Positions 1,656 to 24,141 of a stretch of 32,450 nucleotides of DNA are shown piece by piece. Under the pieces are notes generated by a model that worked only from the letters and a program-made list of their open reading frames with translations, searched no databases and had not been told where the DNA came from. The translations under genes were made by a program, and so were the position numbers. The stretch comes from Thermodiscus sp. (GTDB lineage Archaea > Thermoproteota > Thermoprotei_A > Sulfolobales > Acidilobaceae): assembly GCA_015523485.1 (NCBI GenBank), contig WAKH01000040.1, positions 1 through 32,450 on the forward strand. Direction: 5' to 3'. The stretch's first letter is position 1, and every line of letters begins with the position of its first letter.

Positions 1656-1769
1656 TGGTGGGGCCGCCGGGATTTGAACCCGGGACCACCAGCGTTCTGG
1701 GCTAGCCCCGTCTCGGGGCTGGGGATTGCTCCCCAGGCTGGCATCCTAGCCAGGCTAGACGACGGCCCC
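1656..1769 (-). tRNA. tRNA-Pro (GGG) with a 36-nt intron
   Basis: Read on the minus strand. The acceptor arms are 1763-1769 and 1660-1666 (7 bp), with discriminator A at 1659 and an encoded CCA at 1656-1658. The T arm is CCGGG-UUCAAAU-CCCGG. The anticodon stem CCAGC/GCUGG surrounds loop CUGGGG plus C38, giving anticodon GGG (1732-1734). The intron (1695-1730) lies at the canonical 37/38 position. CUGG pairs with CCAG as a four-base central helix flanked by bulges GGA and AAC, a regular bulge-helix-bulge cut by the archaeal splicing endonuclease. The matching prolyl-tRNA synthetase gene lies at 24242-25696. Confidence 0.93.
1695..1730 (-). other. tRNA-Pro intron
   Basis: A 36-nt intron defined by cuts between the second and third bases of the two 3-nt bulges (GG|A and AA|C). 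Its interior can form a small CCCCG/CGGGG hairpin. The splice points are inferred from the bulge-helix-bulge geometry. Confidence 0.75.
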
Positions 1770-12297: not shown

Positions 12298-12524
12298 CTG
12301 ATCATGAGCCCGGGAGCCTACCATCATGTGATTATGGTTATCGGAAGATTAGTGTTTTAGCTTTTACGGTCCGTGTTTCCATCGAAGGTTCTCTTCTAAG
12401 ATTCAGTTATCAGCGGCTTCAAAAGAGACTATGTCGTTTAGCTACTCGTTGAAGATCGGAATCATCGTTAACGTAAGCATAAGGGAGTAGATAGTTTGGA
12501 GGAGAACATTTGTTAGAATAGGAA
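12298..12524. other. Gene-free spacer between tRNA-Ile and tRNA-Gln
   Basis: About 230 nt with no credible ORF, tRNA or clean box C/D or H/ACA element. It contains scattered TGATCATGA-like words and an AT-rich segment but no convincing promoter. I see nothing annotatable here. Confidence 0.5.
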
Positions 12525-12562
12525 TGGTAGCCGGGCGGGGATTCGAACCCCGGTCACGGGGG

Positions 12563-12752
12563 TTCTCCCCGCAGGCCTACCGCCTCCCCCGATCTCATGA
12601 TCATTCATGTCTGATCCTTATAAGCCTTCTTTACTATATAGCTGTATAATAATTAAAGATTACTAGTTTGAAACTGGTCGCTTAATGTTTGGGAGTGTAC
12701 GGTTAGGGGAAGCTCAGAGGATTGGGAGGGGGAGGCGGCAGGGCCTGCTGGG
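12563..12752 (-). other. 190-nt tRNA-Gln intervening sequence with 18-bp terminal stem
   Basis: The ends of the insert pair strongly: 12742-12748 with 12571-12577 (7 bp), then 12728-12738 with 12580-12590 (11 bp), separated by a 2/3-nt internal loop. This closes a 137-nt AT-rich interior (12591-12727). There is no ORF, no clear box C/D pair and no endonuclease remnant inside. The GC-rich complementary arms plus an internal TATA box resemble the arrangement of trans-spliced split tRNA halves. Confidence 0.75.
12617..12624 (-). promoter_or_regulatory. TATA box inside the tRNA-Gln insert
   Basis: CTTATAAG on the minus strand is centred 30 nt before the GC-rich arm that begins at 12590. Transcription would start near 12595, just before the paired arm and the 3' exon. 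It could allow independent transcription of the 3' tRNA half. Inferred from spacing only. Confidence 0.45.
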
Positions 12753-12869
12753 CCAGAGCCCCGCATCCTTGGCCGCTAGACGACCCGGCTATCCGTCCTC
12801 ATTTATGATTGATAGCTTGTTCTAGTTTAATAAGGGTTAACCCGTGTTATAACCTACTCTAGGCGTACA

Positions 12870-21620: not shown

Positions 21621-23642
21621 TCATTCGCGGCTTTTTTCATTAAAAGGGAAGAACTTTGGTAACCGTACACCTGTTTGCCCCTTGTATTGCCCCCGGTAGG
21701 GCCTATGCGCTGGCGTGTTTAGTTTAACAAGCACGAGGTGGAGGAATCTATCGCCCGGGTACAGTTTAACCGGGAAGCTTGAACCTATAATTTCTATGGT
21801 GAGTTGTCCCTCGAAGCCTGCGTCAACAACGGTATTGTGGGTTACTGCTAGTGTATTGGCTTGCCAGTGACTTTTTGTCTGCCAGTCAACGATGACTCCG
21901 GAATAATAGGTTTTTGTTACTGATGAGACTCTACTCCAGTAGTATTTTGACGCCTCAACTAATTGTTGGTATGCTATTTCGCTTCCAGCGGTCCTAGCAT
22001 CGTGCATGCTAAGAAGGTCGAGAAGGAGTCCAACCTTGTTGAGGGGGACCCTTCCGGCCCTGATTGACTCCACAATGTCCTCATTAATGTCAAGTGTTAG
22101 TGATTTTAGTATCATCCTAGTATAGTTCGTTAAAGGAATATAGTCGTTCGTATTCTTAACTGCGAAATGTTTAACTAATTTAGATATGGTATTCTTAAGT
22201 AACTTCTTAAGATCTCCTAGGATGGGCCTAACGGTATAGTCGTTTCCGACTTTACTTACGGAGGACGTTATGCCCAGTCTACCCAGAATGAGTTGTAATT
22301 GTCTTGCAAACTTACCGTTCATGGCTCTTATTACTAGTAGGTTTTCTGATCTGGATCCTAGTTGTGAGTCGATAAGGCCCGCTATGTAGCTAGCGTTTAT
22401 CTCGTTACGGGACAATGCAATGACTGTCGGATACGATCTTCTTATCATATCGGTAGTTATCTCGGGGAAGTTGTATGACAACCATTTGGCTAGTATGCTT
22501 GATCTCACACTGACGACTCTCTCTCCACCTGTTCTGCGAATCATAACATTAGGTGTCTCGGCTAAAGCGATTAGAGTCTCCAGCATCTTGTCGATTATGT
22601 CATCTTTATCCAACTCGAATACTAGTTCGACCCGATTCCTGAGGATTTTTCCCGCGGTTGTGAATACTCCCGTGAACCATGCAATATCGGAGCTCACCCG
22701 TCTGGGAAGGTTTTTCAGAGGTATGCCTTCTCCAGCCGAATATATGTATGCATATTCTGCGAAGTCGTCGATGCTAGAGTTGAGTGCGGCAAGTAACTTC
22801 TTGAAGAGAGTATATGATAATGGCCTGAGGGACCCCTTTCGCGTAGCGAACTGCTTCAGGTTCTCTACCTGTAATCCTAGGCTTTTAGCTAGCTCATCTA
22901 CAGTTGTATGTGCCTCATCTACCTTTGAGAGTAGGAGTTCCGCACCTTCAGAATCAAGCAGCACTTGAAGATCGCCGGGAACGTCTAGGTATGCGTTTCC
23001 CGAGGGTTGTATTGGTATTGGGATTCGCCTATGGTTGGCGATTAAATGGGTCGTGTTAAGGTGTTGTGCCTCAATACTTTTGAACGGCTTATATTCCAGT
23101 GAATCGGGATCGAATGCAAGGAACTTATGGTTTGATGTAACGGTTAGCTCCTCTAACCCGGTATTCACCCTGTAAACGATTCCAGACCAGTGTGCTACAT
23201 ACTTTCGGCAACCGAGACTATCGCCATCCGCATCACCGCTACATGACGCATGGATTGCCTCCAATGGCACCCCTGATGCATCGAGTACAATTGTGTCCGC
23301 AGTGAAGCATGCCGGAACATATATCCCTGTCCTAGCCCAGGTACTCCTCAAGTTTACAAGGCCTGCAACGTATGAGGGCAGCTTAATGTACTCAAGCGTG
23401 TGGAGGAGAACGTGCTGGTTTGGAGGTATGATGATTTCATCAGCCTCACTACACTCATAGAATTCACTCGGGTCACCCGGATTCCTGGGATCCAACACCT
23501 TATCTACACGCTTGAACCTACAGAATTGCCTCCCGAGCCTGAGATCGAGGCCGTTCTCCCTCACGATCTCCTCATCGAAGGGCTTGATCACGAGATCCCC
23601 GGCCTTAAGCAGCAGGTAGATATCATAGTCCCCCAAAATCAA
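21621..23642 (-). CDS. dcd: dCTP deaminase interrupted by an intein
   Basis: Converts dCTP to dUTP for thymidylate synthesis. The precursor of 673 residues splits into an N-extein (1-111), an intein (112-603) and a C-extein (604-673), giving a mature enzyme of 181 residues, the normal length. The N-extein carries RSTWARTG (Ser100, Arg104); the C-extein carries VVDAGFEGQLTIEI with catalytic Glu617. The intein sits exactly between those active-site halves, so splicing should be needed for activity. The start is TTG 23640-23642, with another TTG two codons in. The 121-nt gap to atpK holds a minus-strand TATA (AATATATT, near 23695). Confidence 0.93.
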   Translation of the reverse strand: MILGDYDIYLLLKAGDLVIKPFDEEIVRENGLDLRLGRQFCRFKRVDKVLDPRNPGDPSEFYECSEADEIIIPPNQHVLLHTLEYIKLPSYVAGLVNLRSTWARTGIYVPACFTADTIVLDASGVPLEAIHASCSGDADGDSLGCRKYVAHWSGIVYRVNTGLEELTVTSNHKFLAFDPDSLEYKPFKSIEAQHLNTTHLIANHRRIPIPIQPSGNAYLDVPGDLQVLLDSEGAELLLSKVDEAHTTVDELAKSLGLQVENLKQFATRKGSLRPLSYTLFKKLLAALNSSIDDFAEYAYIYSAGEGIPLKNLPRRVSSDIAWFTGVFTTAGKILRNRVELVFELDKDDIIDKMLETLIALAETPNVMIRRTGGERVVSVRSSILAKWLSYNFPEITTDMIRRSYPTVIALSRNEINASYIAGLIDSQLGSRSENLLVIRAMNGKFARQLQLILGRLGITSSVSKVGNDYTVRPILGDLKKLLKNTISKLVKHFAVKNTNDYIPLTNYTRMILKSLTLDINEDIVESIRAGRVPLNKVGLLLDLLSMHDARTAGSEIAYQQLVEASKYYWSRVSSVTKTYYSGVIVDWQTKSHWQANTLAVTHNTVVDAGFEGQLTIEIIGSSFPVKLYPGDRFLHLVLVKLNTPAHRPYRGQYKGQTGVRLPKFFPFNEKSRE
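21834..23309 (-). other. Dcd intein with a degenerate LAGLIDADG homing endonuclease
   Basis: A 492-residue class 1 intein. Block A is CFTADTIVL from Cys112. Block B is TSNH with His172. Block F is GVIVDWQTKS. Block G is VTHN (His602-Asn603), followed by Thr604 as the +1 nucleophile, so all splicing residues are present. A possible HTH-like stretch (about 247-287, TVDELAKSLGLQVENLKQFA) precedes the endonuclease motifs IAWFTGVFTTAG (320-331) and YIAGLIDSQLGS (419-430). The first has lost the acidic metal ligand, so cleavage is probably impaired. Confidence 0.9.
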
Positions 23643-23775: not shown

Positions 23776-24141
23776 GTGAAGGCGCTCAAAGTATTAATGG
23801 CGGACAAGAGGTTTAAGGTACTAACCCTCCTAGCAGCAGTTATCGCAGTATTTGCAGCGTTCGCGACAATATCACTTGTAACAGCGGCACAGGAAGCTGG
23901 CCAGCAGACGGCCTCAGTCACTGCTAGCTCAGCCTTCGCCAAGGGTCTAAGCGCTGCACTAGCAGTTGGACTCGCAGGCATTGGAGGAGGCTACGCAGTC
24001 GGTGTAGCAGGTGCAGCGGCCATTAGTGCAATCGCCGAGAACAGGGAGATCTCGGGTACCGCCCTACTATACGTGGCTCTCGGAGAGGGTATCGCAATCT
24101 ACGGACTACTAGTAGCGCTCCTAGTACTGTTCGTCATATAA
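23776..24141 (+). CDS. atpK: A-type ATP synthase subunit K (proteolipid)
   Basis: The rotor proteolipid of the A1Ao ATP synthase, about 121 residues. An N-terminal hydrophobic segment (VLTLLAAVIAVFAAFATISLV) is probably a signal or extra helix. A glycine-rich hairpin helix (GLAGIGGGYAVGVAGAAAISA) follows, then YVALGEGIAIYGLLVALLVLFVI with the ion-binding Glu in LGEGIAIYG. I place the start at GTG 23776, which has GGTGAG about 8 nt upstream; GTG 23764 overlaps that site. No other atp gene is in the window. A T-rich terminator follows. Confidence 0.9.
   Translation: MKALKVLMADKRFKVLTLLAAVIAVFAAFATISLVTAAQEAGQQTASVTASSAFAKGLSAALAVGLAGIGGGYAVGVAGAAAISAIAENREISGTALLYVALGEGIAIYGLLVALLVLFVI

Follow-up and report, generated by a model that had tools for sequence, protein, structure and literature searches.

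The window, a 32,450-nt stretch of contig WAKH01000040.1 from Thermodiscus sp., probably a hyperthermophilic relative of Aeropyrum (genome G000; incomplete assembly of 1.30 Mb, 88% complete), carries on its minus strand a tRNA-Gln(CUG) gene whose two exons are separated by a 190-nt interruption at position 37/38 (Table 1). The gene was missed by both ARAGORN and Rfam. Its 5' exon is identical to the 5' exons of intronless tRNA-Gln(CUG) genes across the order, and the two half-tRNA genes together yield one complete tRNA. Because the second tRNA-Gln gene in G000 is the UUG isoacceptor, this gene looks to be the sole CUG copy in the assembly. The insert begins with CCCAGCAGGCCCTGCCGCCTCCCCC and ends with GGGGGAGGCGGTAGGCCTGCGGGGAGAA, and its interior (12727-12591) is 137 nt long with about 38% GC, just as AT-rich as the initial annotation had described it.

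Table 1. Features of the interrupted tRNA-Gln(CUG) gene, in the direction of transcription (positions of the window)
Feature	Coordinates	Strand	Sequence	Remark
TATA-like element upstream of 5' half	12825..12834	-	CTTATTAAAC	Unchanged in G206; weak matrix match
5' exon (5' half), nucleotides 1-37 including anticodon CUG	12753..12790	-	AGCCGGG...CTCTGG	
190-nt interruption at 37/38	12563..12752	-		Conserved in G206 at 187 nt
GC-rich 3' tail of 5' half	12728..12748	-	GCAGGCC-CTG-CCGCCTCCCCC	Pairs with 3' leader; identical in G206
AT-rich non-coding stretch up to TATA box	12625..12727	-		Less conserved between G000 and G206; single copy; no Rfam family
Internal TATA box, proposed 3'-half promoter	12617..12624	-	CTTATAAG	Predicted start about 12591-12598
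GC-rich 5' leader of 3' half	12571..12590	-	GGGGGAGGCGG-TA-GGCCTGC	Pairs with 5'-half tail
3' exon (3' half), nucleotides 38-73	12528..12562	-		

Arms, candidate promoters and conservation of the insert

The two GC-rich arms pair over 7 bp (12748-12742/12577-12571) and 11 bp (12738-12728/12590-12580), as had been noted before; the UG/UA between these blocks also pairs, so the total is slightly better than that, 20 bp with one bulged C. The complementary tail and leader form a bulge-helix-bulge (BHB) at the junction. A canonical hBHBh can be drawn with the anticodon stem CGGGG/CCCCG, a 4-bp central helix CUCU/GGAG and the bulges GG^C and AA^C, and all its pairs are Watson-Crick or G-U, which bears out the earlier description of the exons and the BHB at 37/38 as canonical. 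In the unconstrained minimum-energy duplex the central pairs are shifted relative to this drawing. The fold has a z-score of -4.6 against shuffles, and none of 200 shuffles was as good. Two splicing-endonuclease subunits (PF01974) are encoded in G000. The start of the 3'-half leader (12588-12603, TGATCATGAGATCGGG) also forms a 16-nt inverted repeat (88%) with positions 12299-12314 near tRNA-Ile, possibly by chance.

The internal TATA box CTTATAAG lies where the initial annotation had placed it, but it ends 26 nt before the 11-bp 3' arm and not 30 nt before it. It is identical to the TATA box of the separate 3' halves in family f2. An 8-mer matrix was trained exclusively on 3' halves that other genomes encode as separate genes, with the family f2 box in the training set. 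It gives the internal box its maximum score, and a box this good at the right place occurs in 0.04% of shuffled interiors. This matrix was used because a 12-mer matrix built from the tRNA genes of G000 itself depends heavily on the CCC that follows the TATA box; for the same reason the 12-mer matrix scores the internal site poorly, and likewise the 5'-half promoter. The internal box differs from the usual tRNA promoters of G000, and the element CTTATTAAAC upstream of the 5' half is weak, yet it is the best upstream match to the tRNA-promoter matrix of the genome. A TATA box is also found at the right place in the long insert of G041, whose arms are unrelated. No T-rich terminator follows the 5' half in the G000 locus; in G201 and G213 one is present. 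At the level of sequence, the 3' half is thus preceded by a candidate promoter of its own.

The same structure, with a 187-nt insert, is found in G206 (record JAADGB010000034), a second species of the genus that comes from a separate assembly and is about 93-94% identical over 10 kb. Since structure and arms are shared, the insert in G000 is not an assembly error. The arms are identical at 52 of 52 positions, compared with 48 of 63 for interior positions 26-88, and the core of CTTATAAG is unchanged. The promoter block is only slightly better kept than the remaining interior (p = 0.065, two genomes), a conservation signal that is suggestive only.

Two other genes in the window are also interrupted or appear so. 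An insert-bearing tRNA at 1659-1769 (minus strand) was found by the Rfam tRNA model and missed by ARAGORN. In a 673-aa frame at 21621-23642 (minus strand) the two ends are dCTP deaminase sequence, and the middle, which begins with CFTADTI and ends near VTHN, is unmatched; the frame looks like an intein-interrupted dCTP deaminase.

tRNA-Gln(CUG) across the order

The CUG 5' exon was sought in 214 genomes, and its spacing from the 3' exon was determined. About 140 CUG loci were obtained. About 57 are intronless, about 60 carry an insert of 14-37 nt and one carries 58 nt (G176). Long inserts are present in six genomes: 127 nt (G186), 167 nt (G041), 187 nt (G206), 190 nt (G000), 195 nt (G213) and 221 nt (G201). 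A size gap from 58 to 127 nt lies between the two groups, and the 190-nt insert is outside the short-intron range of the same gene in relatives, so the earlier remark that it is longer than usual archaeal tRNA introns holds for this gene. Although arm sequences vary from lineage to lineage, the best partner of every 5' arm among the six adjacent cases is the 3' arm of the same locus.

In another 18 genomes, from families f2, f5, f6 and f8, no 3' exon follows the 5' half within the available DNA, and all 18 hold a tRNA-Gln 3' exon elsewhere. In nearly all of these separate 3' halves the leader is GC-rich and complements the 5' tail, and a TATA-like box lies upstream; the box is ambiguous in G029 and G004. 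In G006 the separate CUG 3' half (L146, C1:665745-665777) lacks its own TATA box; another tRNA ends about 54 nt upstream of it, and the two are perhaps co-transcribed.

Two different spacings were found in another genus of the window's family, represented by G201 and G185, whose flanks are syntenic at 78% identity. The halves are 221 nt apart in G201 and about 1.94 kb apart in G185 (L175 2232-4173), in the same order and on the same strand. The G185 spacer holds two complete antisense genes, which encode a PfkB-family kinase and a DeoC/LacD-family aldolase; the tRNA halves and complementary arms are kept. Because a 1.94-kb precursor across two antisense genes is unlikely, the stretch between the halves in this genus is most plausibly intergenic DNA.

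In the genus of the window, the gene order tRNA-Ala, PriX gene, tRNA-Gln(CUG), tRNA-Ile is conserved, and the same syntenic CUG gene takes several forms: uninterrupted in G177, with an intron of 36 nt in G105, and with 187 and 190 nt between its exons in G206 and G000. In a single-gene tree of prolyl-tRNA synthetase, G105 is the sister of G000 and G206 with a support of 0.995, and G177 is likely the next branch, with a support of only 0.30. In the same tree G041 groups with the intronless G030 and G009, and G006 with the intronless G017. Adjacent or separate halves therefore stand beside unsplit sisters in several genera, which favours recent and repeated splitting and makes the order of the steps testable. 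Repeated recent gains of the split state explain this most simply; an alternative, less simple history is that genes reverted repeatedly to the intronless state. The G000 arrangement most likely originated within the genus, and its ancestor at this locus would have been either intronless or interrupted by a short intron. In G105 the CUG and UUG genes (L134, L263) have an identical intron of 36 nt, ATAACGGCTCCCCTGGCTGGGGGGTCGTTAGGGGAT, suggesting that the intron was transferred or that the isoacceptors underwent gene conversion.

The UUG isoacceptor, possible mobile introns and apparently shared 3' halves

The tRNA-Gln(UUG) gene of G000 (L266, C14, 5' half near 23863-23884) has a 145-nt insert at 37/38, with the GC-rich arms GCGGGCCCCACCCC/GGGGTGGGGCCCGC and an internal TATA-like CTTTATAAAG. 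Because this insert is of the same design, both glutamine tRNAs of G000 look adjacent-split. The CUG and UUG arm sets are mutually distinct: the matched duplexes reach -54.0 and -41.5 kcal/mol, while the crossed ones reach -28.1 and -32.3 kcal/mol.

In several genera the halves of tRNA-Gln(UUG) are parted by an apparently mobile intron in which a LAGLIDADG endonuclease is encoded antisense. Such a reading frame (PF14528, PF05204) adjoins the UUG interruption or the 3' half in G177 of the same genus (L362 and L345) and in G111 (L258), G039 (L329/L344) and G186 (L346), which represent four genera and three families. The interruptions are 711-727 nt long or lie at contig ends, the frames are interrupted or incomplete in several of the four genomes, and the arms resemble those of the short ORF-less UUG inserts. 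The LAGLIDADG-bearing interruption is apparently a mobile tRNA intron. As a homing intron exists at the same tRNA position in these archaea, the inserts without an ORF could be what is left of it; no such trace was detected in the CUG insert.

A further arrangement was observed in families f2, f5 and f8: in 14 of their genomes the one 3' half detected complements the tails of the CUG as well as the UUG 5' half (loci L135-L138, L142-L144, L147-L153 with L253-L256, L298, L299, L309-L315, L341). In those genomes, a single 3' half is apparently common to the two glutamine isoacceptors.

Adjacent halves and a long intron as readings of the locus

The locus is probably (probability about 0.78) a split tRNA-Gln(CUG) with adjacent halves, in order on one strand and each with its own promoter. 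Each half gene would be transcribed separately, and the GC-rich tail of the 5' half and the complementary leader of the 3' half would anneal over about 20 bp to give the BHB. The BHB would be cut by the splicing endonuclease and the halves joined in trans at 37/38, presumably by RtcB. Some read-through precursor may be cis-spliced in the same way. As read-through products could be spliced in cis, the locus would work in either mode, a property required of an evolutionary intermediate.

The initial annotation had named a long intron, an intermediate and two adjacent halves in the same order, and the comparison with relatives favours the last. The arms and the TATA box match those of the separate 3' halves in the 18 genomes, the spacing between halves can grow to about 1.94 kb with protein genes, and a verified precedent exists in the tRNA-Asp(GUC) of Aeropyrum pernix (PMC3218864). 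If there were instead one transcript from the upstream promoter, the insert would be a plain 190-nt cis intron and the internal TATA box a chance or inactive piece of AT-rich sequence. The exon order is correct for this, the precursor folds strongly as one molecule, an obvious terminator is missing behind the 5' half, and the order also has introns of 58 nt (CUG) and 61-97 nt (UUG). That one continuous precursor would be folded and spliced just as well counts against the split reading, as does the departure of the internal TATA box from the usual tRNA promoters of G000. However, a plain intron does not accord with the CUG size gap between 58 and 127 nt, with a TATA box that is rightly placed in G041 despite its unrelated arms and unchanged in G206, with the gene-bearing stretch of G185 or with the A. 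pernix precedent, and it is therefore considered unlikely.

The length could also be accounted for by another element hosted in the insert, such as a C/D box sRNA, a small RNA gene or a mobile-element remnant. Archaeal tRNA-Trp introns do carry C/D sRNAs (PMC3218864), and the UUG inserts of relatives contain a LAGLIDADG gene. For the CUG insert, however, Rfam gave no match above the cut-off, C and D boxes in the correct order were absent by eye on both strands, and a C/D box sRNA or other known RNA was rejected. No homing-endonuclease remnant was detected by tblastn in the CUG inserts, and the interior is single copy and drifting between two close genomes. The search for a donor copy elsewhere in G000 returned only a 28-nt palindromic TATA match beside an unrelated small gene. 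A hosted element is thus very improbable.

The preferred reading, two adjacent halves, has its closest counterpart in the tRNA-Asp(GUC) of A. pernix (Chan, Cozen and Lowe 2011, PMC3218864), also a related archaeon. Both have adjacent halves in the same order and on the same strand, the junction at 37/38, a canonical BHB, a GC-rich stem and a promoter, in G000 a candidate one, inside an 'intron' of more than 100 nt. In A. pernix, the internal promoter lies in a 121-nt 'intron', two half transcripts were seen on a northern blot, and the full-length read-through was detected only by RT-PCR (PMC3218864). The G000 locus differs in its tRNA (Gln CUG), in the length of the insert (190 versus 121 nt) and in its arms, and its half transcripts are predicted, those of A. 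pernix experimentally verified. The adjacent halves of the Thermosphaera aggregans tRNA-Asp(GUC) also meet at 37/38, but they are convergent on opposite strands.

The split tRNAs of Nanoarchaeum equitans (His, iMet, Glu, Gln, Lys) share with the G000 locus the complementary GC-rich tails and, on the split reading, BHB joining in trans, and several of them are split at 37/38. One 3' half serves two 5' halves in its tRNA-Glu (PMC4033280), as in distant relatives of G000. In contrast, the N. equitans halves lie far apart, and its split tRNA-Gln is the UUG isoacceptor, parted at 32/33. Canonical archaeal 37/38 introns have the same position, BHB and endonuclease substrate as the G000 insert; they measured 11-129 nt with a median of 15 in a 2011 survey (PMC3218864), and, the A. 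pernix case excepted, they are not known to hold a promoter. A 2014 review counted 29 trans-spliced genes with 12 anticodons in seven genomes (PMC4033280). In the open-access literature searched (subscription papers and GtRNAdb lay outside this scope), no earlier report of a split tRNA-Gln(CUG) in this order was found. With every split-tRNA feature that is accessible from sequence present, the G000 tRNA-Gln(CUG) appears to be an adjacent-half split tRNA of a known type.

The age of split tRNAs, ancient or recent, and the cause of the breakage are still debated. The G000 locus is one stage of a series that comprises, within the genus, an intronless gene, a gene with a 36-nt intron and probable adjacent halves, with dispersed halves elsewhere in the order. 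It is tentatively suggested that tRNA-Gln is a recurrent splitting hot spot in the order and that homing introns may part tRNA genes. If their strains are in culture, the complete genomes that show the trait, such as those of G041, G008 and G006, would open it to wet-lab tests. Living relatives span intronless, short-intron, adjacent, gene-parted and dispersed forms, and one 3' half for both isoacceptors. Because the same tRNA is thus found whole, with a short intron, or in adjacent or distant halves, the steps of gene break-up can be read from living species.
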